Source: a virus. From it: a stretch of 21,240 bases of DNA. The stretch lies in the IMG/VR virus record IMGVR_UViG_3300020411_000116, positions 1-21,240 of that record. The stretch is one strand, 5' to 3'. Of this stretch, positions 4,988 through 21,125 are shown in pieces; position 1 is the stretch's first letter, and every line of letters begins with the position of its first letter. The notes under the pieces are model-generated. The model was not told the DNA's origin. It searched no databases and saw nothing but the letters and a program-made list of their open reading frames with translations. Position numbers and translations under genes: made by a program.

Positions 4988-5326
4988 ATGTCGGTCTTAG
5001 ATAAAGCTAAGGCACACTATCAGAACAAGCTTTCGGAAGAACCGAGGGAGATAAAAATCCCAGAATGGGACACCACAGCTTACATTAAGCCAGCTATGTC
5101 TTTGCAGAGATTGGGCGAAGTGATGGAGGCTGCCAACAGCGGCAAGTCTGCCGAGGCTATGGTTCTGACTATTATTTATCGACTAATCGATGAAGAGGGA
5201 AAGCCGATATTCCGCAAGGTAGAAAAAAGCGAGCTTATGCGGCAAACCGACCCTGATGTGTTAGCTGAGATAGTTAATCAAATTAACCAAGGCGACCCAA
5301 CAGCAGAGGACATTGAGGGAAACTAA
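4988..5326 (+). CDS. Tail assembly chaperone, short form (gpG analogue)
   Basis: A 112-residue acidic helical protein between tail tube and tape measure, the fixed location of the lambda G/GT-type tail assembly chaperones. The N-terminal part (about 18-35) has a strand pair with PREIKIPEWDTTAYIKPAM, followed by helices with SLQRLGEVMEA and MVLTIIYRLIDEEGKPIFRK. This resembles the phage tail chaperone family that handles the tape measure and recruits tube subunits. The last sense codons contain the heptamer GGGAAAC, and the stop TAA follows at once, so normal termination gives this short form. A -1 slip gives a 160-residue GT-like fusion described separately. The chaperone is not expected in the finished virion. 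Confidence 0.78.
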   Translation: MSVLDKAKAHYQNKLSEEPREIKIPEWDTTAYIKPAMSLQRLGEVMEAANSGKSAEAMVLTIIYRLIDEEGKPIFRKVEKSELMRQTDPDVLAEIVNQINQGDPTAEDIEGN

Positions 5327-5469
5327 AAAGCGACAGTGATTTGCAATTTGCCTATTTTCTAGCCGAGCATCTGCACAAAACTGTCGCTGAAATCTTGCAG
5401 ATGGATGTGAGGGAATATCAAGGTTGGCTAGCTTGGTTTCAAATGAAGGCAGACAAGAATGGCAAATGA
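4988..5469 (+). CDS. Tail assembly chaperone, long -1 frameshift product (gpGT analogue)
   Basis: After reading 112 residues of the G frame, a -1 slip at 5317-5323 continues at base 5323 for 48 codons to the TGA at 5467-5469, giving a 160-residue fusion. The extension is upstream-closed by a TGA at 5314-5316 in its own frame, so it can only be reached by slippage near this point. It encodes AYFLAEHLHKTVAEILQMDV and then EYQGWLAWFQM, the familiar T-domain pattern (a helix with LA..L..T..E.L, then E...W.A.F) of gpT-like sequences. It overlaps the first 11 bases of the tape measure gene. The T part is thought to bind the tape measure while G binds tube subunits. Frameshifting is inferred; the sequence signal is unusually complete. 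Confidence 0.8.
5317..5323 (+). promoter_or_regulatory. -1 ribosomal frameshift slippery heptamer
   Basis: The heptamer G-GGA-AAC is in the correct phase of the short chaperone frame (X-XXY-YYZ). Both tRNAs can re-pair as GGG-AAA after slipping one base back. It matches the lambda G/GT site GGGAAAG except for the last base. The zero-frame stop TAA follows directly at 5324-5326. Confidence 0.85.
5329..5403 (+). promoter_or_regulatory. Predicted H-type pseudoknot stimulating the frameshift
   Basis: Stem 1 pairs AGCGACAGT (5329-5337) with ACTGTCGCT (5380-5388), nine perfect base pairs, beginning 5 bases after the slippery site. Stem 2 pairs CATCTGCA (5368-5375), located in the loop of stem 1, with TGCAGATG (5396-5403) downstream, eight perfect base pairs. 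The order of strands is that of an H-type pseudoknot with loops of 30, 4 and 7 bases. The complementarity is seen directly; that both stems form at the same time is inference, since the first loop is longer than usual and the second stem could also form a plain hairpin on its own. Confidence 0.65.
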
Positions 5470-7141
5470 TGTAGTAATTGACATTGTAGCAAACGATAAA
5501 ACCAAAAGAGCTTTCGGTTCTGTTAAAGCTGGGATGCTTGGAATCGGAAAGCTTGCGCTAGGAACTGCTACCAAAGTCGCCAAAATAGGAGCTGCATTTG
5601 TAACAGCAGCAGCCGCAGCAACCGCCGCATTAACCAAGATGTCGATGACCTCTATCGACAATCTCACTAAAACAGCAAACAAAATAGGCGCAACCACTGA
5701 GGCTTTAGCAGGGCTGCAATTAGCCGCAGAGCTTACTGGCGTGTCTACAGAAACCATGAACATGGCCTTGCAGCGGATGACTCGAAGGGTGTCCGAGGCG
5801 GCGATGGGAACAGGTGAGGCTGTTAAGGCATTAAAAGAGCTTGGAATAAATGCCTATGAGTTAGAAAGACTTCCGCTAGACGAACAGATGAATATCGTGG
5901 CAGATGCCATGCAGAATGTAGAGTCGCAAGCAGACAGAGTGCGGCTAGCGATGAAGCTGTTTGATTCAGAAGGTGTTGCACTTGTAAACACGCTAGCTGG
6001 CGGCAGCGAAGCATTGAAAGAATATGCAGCAGAAGCAGAAGCGTTAGGGTTAACGATATCAGATATAGATGCAGCAAAAATAGAAGCAGCAAATGACGCA
6101 GTTACTCAAGCTAAAAAAGTATTCACAGGCTTAGGAAATCAGTTGGCAGTAACTTTTGCCCCACTTATTGAATATGTAGCAAATCTTTTCAGGCAAAGCG
6201 CAATTAATAACGCTGAATTTGGAAACATAGGACAAAGAGTCGCCAAAAAGTTAGTTGAAGCCTATATCTCAGTAAGAAAGGTTTTCTTTGAGTTAGGAAA
6301 GAGTGTAACTAGTACAAAATTAACATTTTTGGCGTTAAGAGATGCAATTACAAATCCTTTGGCTACTACAAGCATCCTTTTTAAATTAAAAAAAGATTTA
6401 GATGAGCTTGCAGCGTCGGAATTTAACACGGAAGCAATAACCGTTGCATTTGAAGCAATAGAAGTTGGCGCACAAAAAGCAGCGGAGTCAGTCGTCAAGC
6501 TAAGAGAAGTTCAGGCTGGAGGAAGCGAAGACCAAAAAAATCAGATTGATACATCAAAGTTTTTTTACGAAGCAGAGCAAAGAGGCGCACAAAAGCTAAA
6601 AGAGTTTACAGTAAAATCTAACGCAGAAAAAACAAAAGATGTACTAGGAAACGCAAATAAGCAGCTAGCGATAGCTGGGACGCAGAGCAAAAAAATGTTT
6701 GCCTTGCAGAAAGCAGCATCTATAGCCAGTGCATTAGTGAACACATACGAGTCTGTAACAGAAACGATGGCGGCTTATCCTTTCCCGATTAATATAGCTC
6801 TGTCTGCTTTAAGTCTGGCGGCGGGTATGGCTCAGGTTAGCGCAATCAAGTCACAGTCTTTCTTAGGTGGTGGGTTTACAGGTTACGGAGCAAGGGCTGG
6901 CGGTTTAGATGGGAAAGGCGGGATGCCAGCTATAGTGCATCCTAACGAGACTATAATAGACCATGAGCGAGGCGGTGGAGCTGGAGTGCAGCAAACAATT
7001 AACATTCAGACAGGCGTGTCTCAAACTGTAAGAGCAGAGATACAGAACTTGCTGCCTGAGATAGTCGAGATATCAAAAGCGGCTATAATAGACAGCAACC
7101 AGCGAGGCGGCTCGTTTAGAAATGGATTACTAGGAACTTAG
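5459..7141 (+). CDS. Tape measure protein
   Basis: A 560-residue protein directly after the chaperone pair, the place of the tape measure, which spans the tail lumen, sets tail length and is ejected ahead of the DNA. The N terminus (ANDVVIDIVANDKTKRAFGS) matches the common start of this family. It is followed by an Ala-rich hydrophobic stretch (about 25-61) and a helical region typical of the TMP_core fold (IGATTEALAGLQLAAELTGV). A coiled-coil centre follows, and a second hydrophobic block around 415-465 ends in the family-typical ALSLAAGMAQVSAIKSQSF. With about 0.15 nm per residue the tail should be near 80 nm, a short siphovirus tail. No lytic transglycosylase or peptidase domain is visible. 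Its ATG lies inside the end of the GT frame. Confidence 0.87.
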   Translation: MANDVVIDIVANDKTKRAFGSVKAGMLGIGKLALGTATKVAKIGAAFVTAAAAATAALTKMSMTSIDNLTKTANKIGATTEALAGLQLAAELTGVSTETMNMALQRMTRRVSEAAMGTGEAVKALKELGINAYELERLPLDEQMNIVADAMQNVESQADRVRLAMKLFDSEGVALVNTLAGGSEALKEYAAEAEALGLTISDIDAAKIEAANDAVTQAKKVFTGLGNQLAVTFAPLIEYVANLFRQSAINNAEFGNIGQRVAKKLVEAYISVRKVFFELGKSVTSTKLTFLALRDAITNPLATTSILFKLKKDLDELAASEFNTEAITVAFEAIEVGAQKAAESVVKLREVQAGGSEDQKNQIDTSKFFYEAEQRGAQKLKEFTVKSNAEKTKDVLGNANKQLAIAGTQSKKMFALQKAASIASALVNTYESVTETMAAYPFPINIALSALSLAAGMAQVSAIKSQSFLGGGFTGYGARAGGLDGKGGMPAIVHPNETIIDHERGGGAGVQQTINIQTGVSQTVRAEIQNLLPEIVEISKAAIIDSNQRGGSFRNGLLGT

Positions 7142-7693: not shown

Positions 7694-8334
7694 TGGCTAG
7701 AACTCTTACAACAGCAATGTCGAATGCAGTTGACGATGAAGTAGTCAGACCGTTTTACCTTATTCATATGAATTTAGACTCTGGTGATGGAGGTGCGCTG
7801 TATTTTTGGAGCGGGGTTGGAAATTACTCTTACGACTCAAAATCTTACATCGGTGCGGGGAATCTTTTAAACATATCTACTATTCAAGAGACGGCAGCAG
7901 TACAGGCGAACGGATTGAGAGTCGGGCTTTCTGGAGTTAATAGCACTTTAATAACCGCAGCGAGAGATGCAGACTACCAAGGAAGGGTTTTAACCTTAAA
8001 GCTTGGGCTTATGGATGCAACTAATACAGTAATCAGCGACCCTGTTATTCTATTTGAAGGGTTTATGGATGTTATGAGCATTACTGACAAAGGTGAAAAA
8101 TGCGATATCTCTGTTTCAGTAGAGCATAGGCTTATCGAATTTGACAGAGAAAGAATTAGAAGGCTAACGGATGCAGACCAGCAAATAGACCACTCTGGAG
8201 ACAAGGGTTTTGAGTTTATTGCCGAAATACAGGAAAAGGAGATTGCATGGGGTGTGCATGATGGATCTAAACCAGTCTACGGAACAGGAAACCGGAACTC
8301 AGACTTAGCGGTAATTCCGCAGATTAATTTTTGA
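7693..8334 (+). CDS. DUF2163-like baseplate hub protein
   Basis: A 213-residue protein with a pattern recalling the N-terminal part of DUF2163 / BR0599 proteins, which form the hub of GTA and lambda-like tail tips. It opens with RPFYLIHMNLDSGDG, then LYFWSGVGNYSYDSKSY, then the I-x-x-I-Q-E-T motif followed by GLRVGLSGVNSTLI. A strand segment with LFEGFMDVMSITD and the acidic or basic helix FDRERIRRLTDADQ follow, the latter typical of the join to an iron-sulfur or peptidase part in other phages. No such Cys cluster is present here. It sits between the Dit-like gene and the GNAT gene, and its stop shares one base with the next ATG. Confidence 0.6.
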   Translation: MARTLTTAMSNAVDDEVVRPFYLIHMNLDSGDGGALYFWSGVGNYSYDSKSYIGAGNLLNISTIQETAAVQANGLRVGLSGVNSTLITAARDADYQGRVLTLKLGLMDATNTVISDPVILFEGFMDVMSITDKGEKCDISVSVEHRLIEFDRERIRRLTDADQQIDHSGDKGFEFIAEIQEKEIAWGVHDGSKPVYGTGNRNSDLAVIPQINF

Positions 8335-8786
8335 TGCTTTATCAGCATGAAAATTACGGCAATGTTAGGGAGGATATAAAGCCGCTAATTATTAAACACT
8401 GGGAAGAGATAGCGTTAAATCAGGACATTATCGAGCTAAACCCAGATTGGGATGCTTATGCAGAGCTTGATAGAGGCGGGATGCTAAGAGTTTTTACGGT
8501 CAGAAAAGAAGACGAGTCGCTAGTTGGTTATTTTGTGGTAATTGTTTCACGCTCTTTGCATTACAAAGACCATTTTTTTGCAAATAACGACATTATCTTT
8601 TTATTGCCAGAATATAGAAAAGGAACAACAGGGATTAAATTAATAGATTTTGCAGAAAGAGAACTAGAGGCAGAAGGCATTACAACTTTAAACATTAATA
8701 CTAAAGACCACCAATCATTCGACGCTATCTTGCAGAGAAGGGGCTACCAAATGATTGAAAGAGTCTACTCGAAGGTCTGGCGTTAA
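8334..8786 (+). CDS. GNAT-family N-acetyltransferase inside the tail-tip module
   Basis: A 150-residue single-domain protein. The ATG at 8334 overlaps the preceding stop (TGATG) and is preferred over a TTG three bases earlier. GNAT features are visible: an N-terminal helix pair, NPDWDAYAELDRGGMLRVF, a strand VGYFVVIVSRSLHY, the FLLPEYRKGTTGIKLIDFAE segment with the acetyl-CoA loop at residues 95-100 (RKGTTG), and a final strand ILQRRGYQMIERVYSKVW. The loop departs from the canonical R-x-x-G-x-G because residue 98 is Thr. Similar single-domain acetyltransferases are known in many phages, often near terminase or virion genes. The substrate is unknown: a virion protein, a host protein, or a small molecule are all possible. 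Note the place between hub and J, a slot that often holds NlpC/P60. Confidence 0.75.
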   Translation: MLYQHENYGNVREDIKPLIIKHWEEIALNQDIIELNPDWDAYAELDRGGMLRVFTVRKEDESLVGYFVVIVSRSLHYKDHFFANNDIIFLLPEYRKGTTGIKLIDFAERELEAEGITTLNINTKDHQSFDAILQRRGYQMIERVYSKVWR

Positions 8787-12116: not shown

Positions 12117-13175
12117 ATGGCTTTTGATGCTGTCATAAAGCTAAAAAGGCTTGTCGCTACCATAGCTGACAAACGTATGGTTATGGTGACGAAGCAGTCT
12201 AGGCTGATTGCTGATGTATTTATCGGAGCAATAGACAGGATTAGAAGAACATTTGCAGACACAAGCTCAATTACAGACACGCAGACTATAGACTTTGGAA
12301 AGAAGCCTAGCGAAACAGTTTCCTTAACGGAGTCGCAAGTTAAAGCGTTTGCAAAATCAACATCTGACGCTTTAGGAGTAACAGACTTAGCGTCTAAAGA
12401 AGCCGGAAAAACGTTAGCTAATGCGTTTAGCATATCCGATGCTTTAACAAGGCAATATAACAAGATTGTTTCTGAAGCAGTCAACGCAACCGACGACGTA
12501 AACGGTGCGCTTGCTGGTGATGACCAAACCATGCACTTTGTTAAAAGCGTTTCAGATGCTCCAGCAGTAAGTGATTCCCTATCAACTGCTTTTGCTAAAT
12601 ATGTTTCTGATTCATCAGCTATTACTGATAACGCAATTAATGAAATAGGCAAGAAGCCATCTGACTCAGTTTCTATGGCAGAAAGCCAAACCTTCTCAGT
12701 TGGCAAGGCTGTATCAGAGACACCAAGTGTTACAGACTCGCTGTCTAAGGCGTTACAAAGAGCATTTTCTGAAGCTCCATCAATTAGTGACTCTGTTGCG
12801 CTTCAACTAATAAAAATAAAAGATATTGCAGATACTGCTGGAATGACAGACAGTCAAAACATGGCCTTTGGCAAGAAGCCATCTGACACTGTTGCATCTA
12901 GCGAAACTCAAGTTTTCAATTTTGGCAAAAATATATCAGAAACAGCCATTGCCACAGATGATGTGAACGGAGCGTCTGCTGGGGATGACCAGACAATGGC
13001 ATTTTTCAAATCCACTGCTAACACTGCCAATGTTAGCGATTCAGTGATAAACTCACCTAACAAGATTCTATCAGATGCTAGCGCAGCCTCTGATTCGGGA
13101 AGTTACAGAGGGCAAAGTTACTGTGACTTCACTTATTTTGATGATGATTATGTAGGTTACACAGGAACCTTTTAA
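12117..13175 (+). CDS. Tail fibre built from about fifteen 18-residue repeats
   Basis: A 352-residue protein with a 44-residue basic N-terminal part (KLKRLVATIADKRMVMVTKQ) and then repeats of 18 residues from about residue 45 to 328. Examples are VSETPSVTDSLSKALQRA, VSDAPAVSDSLSTAFAKY and FSEAPSISDSVALQLIKI. The consensus is x-S-(D/E)-(A/T/S)-x-(S/A)-(V/I)-(T/S)-D-S, then a variable strand ending in (F/G)-x-K-x. Two repeats carry a 9-residue insert with GDDQTM, one has a 2-residue insert. The C terminus (residues about 329-352) is a separate Tyr/Asp-rich end, with TYFDDDYVGYTGTF. Such regular short repeats suggest a solenoid or trimeric fibre shaft; the C-terminal end would be the tip or a stop. 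Receptor specificity is unknown. Confidence 0.72.
   Translation: MAFDAVIKLKRLVATIADKRMVMVTKQSRLIADVFIGAIDRIRRTFADTSSITDTQTIDFGKKPSETVSLTESQVKAFAKSTSDALGVTDLASKEAGKTLANAFSISDALTRQYNKIVSEAVNATDDVNGALAGDDQTMHFVKSVSDAPAVSDSLSTAFAKYVSDSSAITDNAINEIGKKPSDSVSMAESQTFSVGKAVSETPSVTDSLSKALQRAFSEAPSISDSVALQLIKIKDIADTAGMTDSQNMAFGKKPSDTVASSETQVFNFGKNISETAIATDDVNGASAGDDQTMAFFKSTANTANVSDSVINSPNKILSDASAASDSGSYRGQSYCDFTYFDDDYVGYTGTF
12249..13100 (+). repeat. Tandem 54-base (18-codon) repeats coding for the fibre shaft
   Basis: The fibre gene holds about 15 units of mostly 54 bases, diverged in DNA but constant in protein length: three adjacent units within 12600-12800 end in AAA-rich codons at the same phase. 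Two units are 81 bases (12474-12554 and 12936-13016) and share VNGA-x-AGDDQTM, pointing to an internal duplication of a larger block. Boundaries are approximate. Confidence 0.6.
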
Positions 13176-16267: not shown

Positions 16268-17818
16268 ATGCCATTCATAGGAAAACAGCCAGCCCACGGA
16301 AACAGGACGCTTTTAGATAGCATCACGACTTCAGCGACAGCGACGTATACGCTGCAAAAGAGCAGTGCTACCTTTACAGCAGCAAGTGCTGAATCGCTTA
16401 TCGTTTCGCTCAACGGAGTTATCCAAGCACCGATATCAGCCTACACTTTAGCCAGCAACAATACTCAAATTGTCTTTGCAAGTGCGCTAACAAGTAGCGA
16501 TGTGATTGATTTTATCATTTCGGTTTCAGACGCTGCTTTGCCGATTGGAACACCCTCAGATTCAACCGTCACATCTGCAAAGATTGTAGACGGAAGTGTC
16601 ACGGTTGATAAGCTGGCCGCTGGCACAATTAAAACGCCGTCAGCTTATAGTGTTGCAGTAGGAACAAATGCACTTGTTGATGGCAGTCTTTCAGGTAGCT
16701 ATAACGTGGCTGTCGGAGTTGATTCCTTAAAAGAAAATGAAAATGGTGCGTACAATACTGCCGTAGGTGCCAGTACGTTAAAAACGCAAACGTCGGCAAG
16801 TTACAACACGTCGGTGGGTTATGCTGCGGGGGCAGCAATAACAACAGGGGGTTATAATTGTCTGTACGGATACCTTTCTGGAAACGATTTAACTGATGGG
16901 GTGTCGAACAATCTTATAGGTGCGTTTTCGGGTGAATTCGCAACGTCGGCAAGTTACAGTAATGCTCACGGCTATGCAGCGTTATATAAATTAACCACAG
17001 GGAATCACAATTCTGCATTTGGGCAACAGTCGTTGCATGAAAACACTACAGGGCATTCTAATTCAGGATTTGGAAATTACAGTCTTTATAGCAACACAGA
17101 AGGATTTTTAGGAACGGCAGTTGGTTATGCTGCTTTATATGGTAATACCGACGGTGATTACAACACGGCGGTAGGAGTCCAAGCGGGATATACCAATAGT
17201 ACAGGTTACAACCAAGTTTTCCTCGGAGGATATGCGGGATATGCCGCCACTACAGGGAACTCAAATCTTTGTGTGGGCTATGTCTCAGGATATGGAATCA
17301 CTTCAGGGTCAAACAATATTTGCGTCGGAACTTCGTCTGGCAGAGCTACAGCCCCTTCTGGCAACATTACAACAGGTAGCAACCAAGTATGCATTGGTGA
17401 TAACAGTATTACTGATGCTTTTATAAAGGTGGCTTGGACTACTGGCTCAGATGAAAGAGACAAAGCAGAGATAACCGACTTCACACACGGATTGTCTTGG
17501 ATCAACAAAATGCGCCCAGTTACTTATAAATGGGACATGCGCTCTGACTATTTAGATGAAGATGACGAAGAGCAAGACATCACCAAAGTAACTCGTGACG
17601 GCTCAAAGAAAAAGAGCAAAATACATATTGGTCTTATCGCACAAGAAGTTTTAGAAATCGAAAAGGCAGATAATTTTGCAACCACTACAGACAATGAGCT
17701 TCTTGTATCTTCAAATGCAGATAGGACTGCAATCGGTCTTCAATACGAGCGAGTTGTACCTGTCTTAATTAACGCAATCAAGGAGCTAGAAGCTCGAATC
17801 AAAGTGCTGGAGGGCTAG
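16268..17818 (+). CDS. Tail fibre with YadA-like repeats and S74 intramolecular chaperone
   Basis: A 516-residue protein with an AGGAG site 7 bases upstream. Domains: MPFIGKQPA anchor (1-10); a beta domain with SLNGVIQAPISAYTLASNN (about 45-65); linker SAKIVDGSVTVDKLA (about 104-118); about fourteen repeats of mostly 17 residues (about 130-375), each with a N-x-(A/S)-(V/F)-G turn such as YNTAVG, SNSGFG and SNNICVG, like the head repeats of YadA adhesins. A C-terminal S74 chaperone from residue 394 to the end has SDERDK, GLSWINKMRPVTYKW, IGLIAQEV, LQYERVVPVLINAIKELEAR. Ser394 and Lys399 have the Ser-x4-Lys spacing of the self-cleavage dyad, so a fragment of about 123 residues should be released after trimer folding. 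Receptor unknown. Confidence 0.82.
   Translation: MPFIGKQPAHGNRTLLDSITTSATATYTLQKSSATFTAASAESLIVSLNGVIQAPISAYTLASNNTQIVFASALTSSDVIDFIISVSDAALPIGTPSDSTVTSAKIVDGSVTVDKLAAGTIKTPSAYSVAVGTNALVDGSLSGSYNVAVGVDSLKENENGAYNTAVGASTLKTQTSASYNTSVGYAAGAAITTGGYNCLYGYLSGNDLTDGVSNNLIGAFSGEFATSASYSNAHGYAALYKLTTGNHNSAFGQQSLHENTTGHSNSGFGNYSLYSNTEGFLGTAVGYAALYGNTDGDYNTAVGVQAGYTNSTGYNQVFLGGYAGYAATTGNSNLCVGYVSGYGITSGSNNICVGTSSGRATAPSGNITTGSNQVCIGDNSITDAFIKVAWTTGSDERDKAEITDFTHGLSWINKMRPVTYKWDMRSDYLDEDDEEQDITKVTRDGSKKKSKIHIGLIAQEVLEIEKADNFATTTDNELLVSSNADRTAIGLQYERVVPVLINAIKELEARIKVLEG
16649..17420 (+). repeat. YadA-like 17-residue (51-base) repeats in the S74 fibre
   Basis: About fourteen consecutive units, twelve of exactly 17 residues, such as GYAALYKLTTGNHNSAF, GQQSLHENTTGHSNSGF and GYAALYGNTDGDYNTAV. 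The last one carries a 6-residue insert. The Gly at unit start and the N-x-A-V at unit end are conserved. They form a predicted left-handed beta-roll shaft. Limits are approximate. Confidence 0.65.
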
Positions 17819-20355: not shown

Positions 20356-20748
20356 ATGAGTTACTTTTCTGAAGACGAGCTGAGATGTCAATGCGGGTGT
20401 GGTGTCTACAAGTTTGACGAAGGGATGCTCAAAGTAATAAATCTAATCAGGGAAAAAGTAGGACAGCCATTACCCATTAGTTCTGGCTACAGATGCCTAA
20501 AACACCCTATCGAAGCAGCTAAAATAGCCTCTGGACGCTCTGTAAAGCGATATGGCGCACATACGACAGGAAGAGCAGTAGATATAGCTGTAAGAGGTAA
20601 AATCGCCCTACAAGTGATACAGGAGGCACAGAAGCCCTATGCCTCAATCCAGAGAATAGGTATTAACCAGAAAGGTGATAGAAGGTTTATTCATTTGGAC
20701 AATGCAGACGAAATAGGTTACCCGTCCCCAGCAATCTGGAGCTATTAA
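20356..20748 (+). CDS. Endolysin, peptidase M15 type (D-Ala-D-Ala / L-Ala-D-Glu peptidase)
   Basis: A 130-residue zinc peptidase of the M15_3 family that cleaves peptidoglycan stem peptides. Visible: the N-terminal Cys cluster CQCGCG (Cys11, 13, 15), the core motif ISSGYRC (residues 41-47), then zinc ligands His69 and Asp76 in GAHTTGRAVDI and His113 in FIHLD. The length is typical of a single-domain endolysin with no cell-wall-binding domain, as usual for phages of Gram-negative hosts. No signal peptide is present, so release depends on the holin. The start is the ATG at 20356, two bases after the previous stop, with AGGA about 8 bases upstream. Its stop overlaps the nuclease start (TAATG). 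Confidence 0.87.
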   Translation: MSYFSEDELRCQCGCGVYKFDEGMLKVINLIREKVGQPLPISSGYRCLKHPIEAAKIASGRSVKRYGAHTTGRAVDIAVRGKIALQVIQEAQKPYASIQRIGINQKGDRRFIHLDNADEIGYPSPAIWSY

Positions 20749-21125
20749 TGAAGTCAAAGCTTTGGTTCTATAGAGGTATCTGTGAGCGAGTTATCGACGG
20801 CGATACCATCGTTTTTAGTGCAGAATTAGGATTTGATGTCGTGTTGACAAGCCAGAGAATGAGGCTAGCTGGTATCAATACCCCAGAGTCCAGAACAAGA
20901 AACAAAGAAGAGAAGGTTCTAGGTCTTGCTGCGAAAGAAAGATTGATGGAGTTGCTACCAGTTGGTGAAAAGTTTATTTTTCACAGCTTAGGGTTTGGCA
21001 AGTTTGGTCGAACTCTAGGAATACCATTCTATGAAAACAAATCAATTTGTCAGATCCTAATCGATGAGGGTCATGCTCGACCTTACTCCGGTGGAAAGCG
21101 AGAACCTTGGATTTCACAGTCTTAA
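20748..21125 (+). CDS. Staphylococcal-nuclease-like (TNase) protein
   Basis: A 125-residue OB-fold nuclease of the SNase family, which cuts DNA and RNA with calcium. Motifs: VIDGDT (Asp17, Asp19), MRLAGINTPE with Arg39 and Glu47, and GKFGR with Arg88, then LIDEGHARPYSGGKREPW. Compared with the Staphylococcus enzyme, Asp19/Asp21, Arg35, Glu43 and Arg87 all have counterparts, but the calcium ligand Asp40 is replaced by Asn44; other phage and bacterial members also carry this INTPE form, so activity is likely. There is no signal peptide. It is the last gene of the + strand operon, coupled to the endolysin by TAATG. Possible roles are host DNA breakdown, nucleotide supply or damage to competing DNA. 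Confidence 0.82.
   Translation: MKSKLWFYRGICERVIDGDTIVFSAELGFDVVLTSQRMRLAGINTPESRTRNKEEKVLGLAAKERLMELLPVGEKFIFHSLGFGKFGRTLGIPFYENKSICQILIDEGHARPYSGGKREPWISQS

Follow-up and report, generated by a model that had tools for sequence, protein, structure and literature searches.

A putative −1 frameshift site in phage tail chaperone genes with a covarying stem that keeps its 5′ strand and changes its 3′ partner

The G/GT frameshift of phage lambda and its counterparts were reportedly found to be conserved in tailed phages by Xu, Hendrix and Duda in 2004, a study cited in PMC5009743 and PMC3711429. The working ratio of gpG to gpGT in lambda is about 30:1, and the T part binds the major tail protein (PMC5009743). 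In bacteria, −1 shifting is stimulated by stems or pseudoknots that generally begin 5–8 nt past the heptamer, and a conserved hairpin occurs in three of five phage clusters, being judged possibly relevant in one (PMC4066793). The capsid gene of Listeria phage PSA has a +1 frameshift with a pseudoknot stimulator (PMC5009743).

Here we analysed a 21,240-base IMG/VR viral record, IMGVR_UViG_3300020411_000116 (the window), for which an initial annotation had proposed a complete −1 frameshift signal with a predicted H-type pseudoknot in a tail chaperone gene. Direct reading places the in-phase GGGAAAC, the TAA next to it and the 5-nt spacer as that annotation had them: the chaperone open reading frame (ORF) ends GAG GGA AAC TAA, with the heptamer forming its final sense codons (Table 1). 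The identity of the gene agrees with its phrog_344 match and its position between the tail tube and tape measure genes; phrog_344, a tail assembly chaperone family, was also matched by 11 of the 11 chaperone homologues in A1. The sense part of the −1 ORF (5323–5466) adds 48 residues to the 112 of the chaperone, giving a fusion of 160 aa. The locus thus resembles lambda G/GT in the order of tail tube, chaperone and tape measure genes, in an in-phase X_XXY_YYZ at the end of the chaperone and in a T-like −1 extension, but differs from it in using GGGAAAC or AAAAAAC with the stop directly behind and in having a T part of only 48 codons.

Table 1 Features of the frameshift region in the window
Feature	Position	Strand	Evidence
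0-frame tail assembly chaperone (G-like), 112 aa	4988–5326	+	phrog_344, E = 3.7e-11
Slippery heptamer GGGAAAC, phased G_GGA_AAC	5317–5323	+	Direct reading
−1 frame T-like ORF, 48 codons and TGA (5467–5469)	5323–5469	+	Homology
0-frame stop TAA, within the 5-nt spacer 5324–5328	5324–5326	+	Direct reading
S1 5′ strand AGCGACAGT, fixed anchor strand	5329–5337	+	Top helix of codon-aware scan
P2 5′ strand TGCA, nested extension of S1 over a 4×4 internal loop, pairs with 5372–5375	5342–5345	+	RNAfold minimum free energy (MFE) structure
H1, hairpin inside the S1 loop	5347–5367	+	Class A Z 3.8 (inflated by class definition), rank 22 of 7134
S2 5′ strand CATCTGCA, proposed pseudoknot, without comparative support	5368–5375	+	8 Watson–Crick pairs
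S1 3′ strand ACTGTCGCT, class A partner site	5380–5388	+	Covariation
S2 3′ strand TGCAGATG, proposed pseudoknot, without comparative support	5396–5403	+	8 Watson–Crick pairs
Class B partner site, unpaired in the window	5403–5413	+	S1B, 5331–5341/5403–5413
Tape measure protein gene, overlapping the end of the −1 ORF	5459–7141	+	phrog_9483 (tail length tape measure), E = 7.5e-88

Four scans of viral contigs, one of which contributed the best 80 of about 240 loci, yielded 80 unique frameshift regions that form a gap-free alignment. Among the matches listed, all 80 unique relatives carry an X_XXY_YYZ heptamer (GGGAAAC in 57, AAAAAAC in 22, GGGAAAT in 1) directly 5′ of a 0-frame stop (TAA in 64, TGA in 15, TAG in 1), and all 80 have the T-like −1 ORF. 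In a chaperone-protein tree whose alignment columns exclude the stem, GGGAAAC and AAAAAAC are exchanged in four changes and only slip-compatible forms occur; because this exchange takes three substitutions that keep the slip rule, it suggests that selection acts on slipping and not on the residue encoded (Gly or Lys). The T part has 14 invariant residues across 17 homologues, and 16 of the 17 homologous T parts match phrog_337 ('tail protein'). The whole 160-aa fusion aligns end to end (3–156 with 6–159/160) with the tail assembly chaperone family phrog_16513, itself 160 residues long (E = 8.9e-10), and a T-part profile aligns weakly with the N terminus of lambda gpT (37 columns, hhalign E = 0.0013, probability only 18%). 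The T-like domain foreseen for the −1 product was thus recovered through phrog_337 and phrog_16513. A universal heptamer together with a universal T-like −1 ORF makes −1 frameshifting very likely, and the phrog_16513, phrog_337 and weak lambda gpT alignments make it the straightforward reading. A more distant branch (L098–L110) has a T part of the type DPHLWTLYYIAY, weaker stems (p 0.02–0.2) and, in some members, AAAAAAC 3–6 nt ahead of the stop.

The same fusion could come from transcriptional slippage or an indel polymorphism, and the A6 runs of the AAAAAAC relatives could indeed slip. GGGAAAC, however, which is the form of the majority and of the window, has no run long enough, and slippage by RNA polymerase needs no RNA stem downstream at ribosomal distance; we regard this origin as extremely improbable and retain ribosomal frameshifting. 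Upstream, a Shine–Dalgarno-like GAGG lies 7 nt ahead of the heptamer (5306–5309) and recurs in 25 of 50 representatives, with some such tetramer in 44 of 50; these are plain counts, the stretch encodes acidic residues, and an upstream stimulator of this kind was a candidate that we did not adopt.

Downstream, the stem S1 consists of nine Watson–Crick pairs and has its base 5 nt after the heptamer. Only 3 of the 21,120 9-mers in the window have an equally close, perfect Watson–Crick partner downstream, and the window's best stem from the S1 5′ strand has p = 0.003 when the synonymous codons of the −1 protein are re-drawn. S1 is therefore clearly beyond chance in the window. Because both strands of S1, and of the second stem S2 that was proposed to complete the pseudoknot, lie in the −1 reading frame, a comparative null has to preserve the protein. 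In our codon-aware null, synonymous codons were permuted among sequences within each codon column, with all proteins and column codon sets kept, and every possible 6-bp helix was scanned (8446 helices in 53 sequences, 7134 in 34 class A sequences and 4682 in class B). The classes differ in the site of the 3′ partner, which lies at +57 to +65 in class A, including the window, and at +80 to +90 in class B, mostly AAAAAAC phages.

Across all 53 sequences, the S1 antidiagonal ranked first of the 8446 helices in this unsupervised scan with a Z of about 6, a value free of inflation from class definition; as the sequences are related, and phylogenetic non-independence is handled in part only, this and the other Z values and shuffles overstate independence. 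The S1 pairing was reached by 0–1 of 2000 codon shuffles at four redundancy cut-offs. S1 was again first of 7134 helices in the 34 class A sequences, the classes being partly defined by the tested pairing, so that class-specific Z values are inflated. In class A, 24 cells had changed on both sides of S1 against 7.2 ± 2.2 after shuffling, 85% were paired against 15–50% when the strands were slid, and the RNAalifold consensus of the 34 sequences was the S1 core alone. Pair 5335/5382 is C-G in 19 class A sequences, A-U in 8, U-A in 5 and unpaired in only 2; on the chaperone tree one side changes 6 times, the other 5 times and the two jointly only 6 times. For 5330/5387, where G-C and C-G are exchanged, the corresponding counts are 6, 6 and 7. 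Independent-pair counts (starred branches) amount to only 3–4, all of them concordant or neutral and none opposed. The check for stem covariation that the initial annotation had suggested thus gave compensatory changes coupled on the tree, and these comparisons strongly support S1 as a stem that begins 5–8 nt after the heptamer, at stimulator distance, and has been kept by repeated compensatory change. The sole relative with GGGAAAT followed by TGA (L150) has S1 intact, with 9 pairs.

Such pairing could be a by-product of the conserved −1 frame protein: the core GAC/GTC does fall within conserved Asp and Thr–Val codons, and S2 resembles exactly such a case. S1, however, still wins under a null that keeps every protein and column codon set. 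The Thr codon varies in its third base together with the leading base of the codon for a variable residue, 47 nt upstream (A-U, U-A, C-G); Ser, Ala, Thr or Gly at one residue co-vary with Ala, Gly or Val at another in accordance with base pairing, and pairing at the class A site vanishes exactly where a different partner arises. A protein by-product is thus highly improbable, and pairing of the RNA itself is the reading that we carry forward.

Two further helices lie within the S1 loop. P2 (5342–5347/5370–5375) is preferred in the RNAfold MFE structure of the window (all scores here come from models of isolated RNA) and competes with S2; as a conserved extension of S1 it reached a Z of at most 1.85 and is not claimed. 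H1 is weak in the window, strong in relatives and common to classes A and B, with 80% of its cells paired in A4 and 94% in A5. An Rfam search of 5200–5600 gave no match up to E = 1.

Beyond what the initial annotation had described, the 5′ strand is anchored 5–9 nt after the heptamer in most lineages, whereas the 3′ partner site varies by lineage from about +23 to +112. Pair counts lend S1 no support in class B, and mostly none in the AAAAAAC relatives, which nevertheless show strong folding. In class B, 22 sequences form 9–11 of the 11 pairs of S1B, of which the window can form 6, and S1B ranks 1–2 of 4682 helices, with compensatory changes at 5335/5409 (C-G, G-C, A-U) and 5340/5404; RNAalifold predicts it together with the inner hairpin H1. 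Other partners were found at 5346–5356 (L107), 5354–5364 (L052), 5361–5369 (L096), 5370–5378 (L094, L111), 5382–5399 (L154, L159) and 5417–5428 (L059, L176), and the outer topology is a hairpin, a long hairpin with an inner hairpin, or multibranch. L154/L159 and L155/L160 are close sisters with a nearly identical 5′ strand, GGCGACCCCGACC; a single 3′ codon differs between them (GGG or GCC), and the stem is re-registered to match. The three partner groups correspond to five changes on the chaperone tree. Class B comprises 19 AAAAAAC and 3 GGGAAAC heptamers and class A 40 GGGAAAC, 2 AAAAAAC and 1 GGGAAAT, an association that may reflect common descent only, given so few changes on the tree.

To score the stem irrespective of its partner, we took the best helix of the fixed 5′ strand 5328–5340 with anything downstream. 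Against the codon-aware null, this anchored stem had a mean z of −2.0 (class A), −1.8 (class B) and −2.5 (remaining sequences); against a within-sequence codon null the mean was −1.5, −2.2 and −2.0, respectively, compared with +0.3 to −0.4 for two control region pairs under the latter null. Stems were weak or non-significant in L068, L261, L018, L084, L187 and CRP-821. On this comparative evidence, what selection preserves is a stem with an anchored 5′ strand, whose 3′ location is free and has repeatedly changed. A real stem might instead affect the stability or processing of the mRNA or control translation of the tape measure gene, and it does lie just 5′ of the tape measure start. Its distance is constant to the heptamer only, however, while the 3′ side varies in position by about 90 nt, with no tie to the tape measure ribosome-binding site, which makes a role outside frameshifting improbable.

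The arrangement extends to cultured phages. A_AAA_AAC followed by TAA or TAG is present in DSL-LC06 (lake), in CRP-811, CRP-406, CRP-821, CRP-823 and CRP-831 (Roseobacter) and in HTVC026P (SAR11). DSL-LC06 has an anchored stem of 13 bp (z −5.95), CRP-811 one of 11 perfect bp with an 80-nt loop (p = 0.02) and CRP-406 one of 13 bp including G-U pairs (p = 0.04); the stems of CRP-821, CRP-823 and CRP-831 have 11 bp (p about 0.2), and that of HTVC026P has p = 0.1. Unlike these phages as a family, with their conserved covarying downstream stem, lambda and P2 gave no significant stem in the same test (p = 0.12 and p = 0.83). HK97 was left out as a control, no strict X_XXY_YYZ heptamer having been found in the stretch scanned. 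A nucleotide search of a phages collection gave no match, and the 199 pattern matches in genome contigs included no relatives. In the records of the cultured relatives (L272, L273, L274, L275, L276, L277 and L032), the genes for the chaperone and the tape measure protein are annotated but the T ORF between them is not, so that our analysis corrects the records of cultured Roseobacter and SAR11 phages, from which the T part is absent. The chaperone of CRP-406 is labelled hypothetical in its published record.

S2 had been predicted from complementarity that is indeed there: eight Watson–Crick pairs in pseudoknot order (5368–5375/5396–5403). Classical H-type pseudoknots have a short loop 1. Like those of coronavirus IBV, retroviruses and Listeria phage PSA, the window has two complementary segments in pseudoknot order, but here the second stem lacks comparative support and loop 1 spans 30 nt, with 4 nt between the S2 5′ and S1 3′ strands and 7 nt in L3. 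The loop lengths are sterically possible, p for the best helix in pseudoknot order is 0.02 in the window alone and 0.025–0.11 in L004, L006, L142 and L145, and S2 is marginally beyond chance in the window sequence. All eight S2 pairs are present only within the window's subclade, in 11 of its 12 members; five class B sequences retain 7 of the 8. Within that subclade the S2 codons CAT CTG CAC are invariant while adjoining K, E and D codons vary synonymously, although with codons almost invariant compensation cannot show there.

The comparative tests speak against conservation of S2. It shows no excess over the codon-aware null (p 0.12–0.36) and ranks 1794th of 8446 helices in the 53 sequences and 2365th of 7134 in class A, where only 61.8% of its cells are paired and five of its eight pairs are broken in at least 10 of the 34 sequences; one pair is broken even in L002, with a 99% identical chaperone. 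Its sides evolve independently on the tree, changing 10 and 9 times at 5373/5398 (jointly 14) and 7 and 10 times at 5374/5397 (jointly 13). By a simple column shuffle S2 did exceed expectation, with 20 doubly changed cells against 11.2 ± 2.3, an excess that traces almost wholly to 5374/5397 and is gone on the tree and under the codon-aware null. By coincidence, the codons for H-L-H and M-Q-M are reverse complements, and the S2 5′ strand overlaps the competing P2. A pseudoknot with a lineage-changing partner was also considered and rejected: class A sequences show an excess of pairing between loop and 3′ flank (Stouffer −3.7), and this stems mainly from the window's subclade and weak, scattered alternatives (5362–5366 with 5408–5412). 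We therefore think it rather unlikely that S1 and S2 form a compact H-type pseudoknot acting as stimulator in the window and the phages closest to it; the pseudoknot is possible in the window's subclade, but is not the conserved element. Of the initial annotation, the frameshift cassette, the T-like product and S1 hold, whereas the second stem of a complete pseudoknot signal is not supported; only the first stem is.

What remains is, very probably, a programmed −1 site of the lambda G/GT kind with a stem anchored at the entry distance and its 3′ strand free. Read from the sequence, a ribosome that has GGA in its P site and AAC in its A site would meet the base of the stem at the mRNA entry. 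In a minority of passages the two tRNAs would re-pair on GGG AAA, and the ribosome would continue in the −1 frame to yield the 160-aa chaperone–T fusion; most ribosomes would halt at TAA and release the 112-aa chaperone. On the model of lambda, the tape measure protein would be coated by the short form, while the rarer long form would recruit the tail tube protein. Conservation of the anchor position alone suggests that the decisive factor is resistance at the entry channel at that moment.

The 3′ stem-loops of dnaX, IS911 and the IS3 family likewise begin 5–8 nt past the heptamer (PMC4066793, PMC5009743); here, unlike there, loops reach about 80–90 nt and the 3′ partner has moved while the 5′ strand was kept. 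A G/GT frameshift with a 3′ stem stimulator is a known kind, and the movable partner strand appears to be what is new; we found no description of this structure in open-licence papers. We lean, with some reserve, towards a class of stimulator with a fixed 5′ and an interchangeable 3′ strand, in which hairpin, long-range and multibranch forms have replaced one another several times among marine and lake phages, with frameshifting kept and the heptamer type shifting along. As lambda is thought to lack an obvious stimulator, a phage family with a covarying stem would represent another build of tail-chaperone frameshifting. The series of partner changes at one homologous site offers a natural experiment that would set the topology and stability of the whole structure against a stem at the entry distance.

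Elsewhere in the window, a small protein encoded between tail genes (8331–8786) has no Pfam match, and the syntenic DSL-LC06 gene is annotated as an acetyltransferase. A 352-aa protein with many near-repeats of the type SVSDSLS (12117–13175) likewise has no Pfam match. The protein encoded at 16268–17818 is tail fibre-like; it contains repeats and carries an S74 intramolecular chaperone domain at its C terminus. A Peptidase M15 family protein, likely the endolysin (20356–20748), is followed by a staphylococcal nuclease-like protein (20748–21125).
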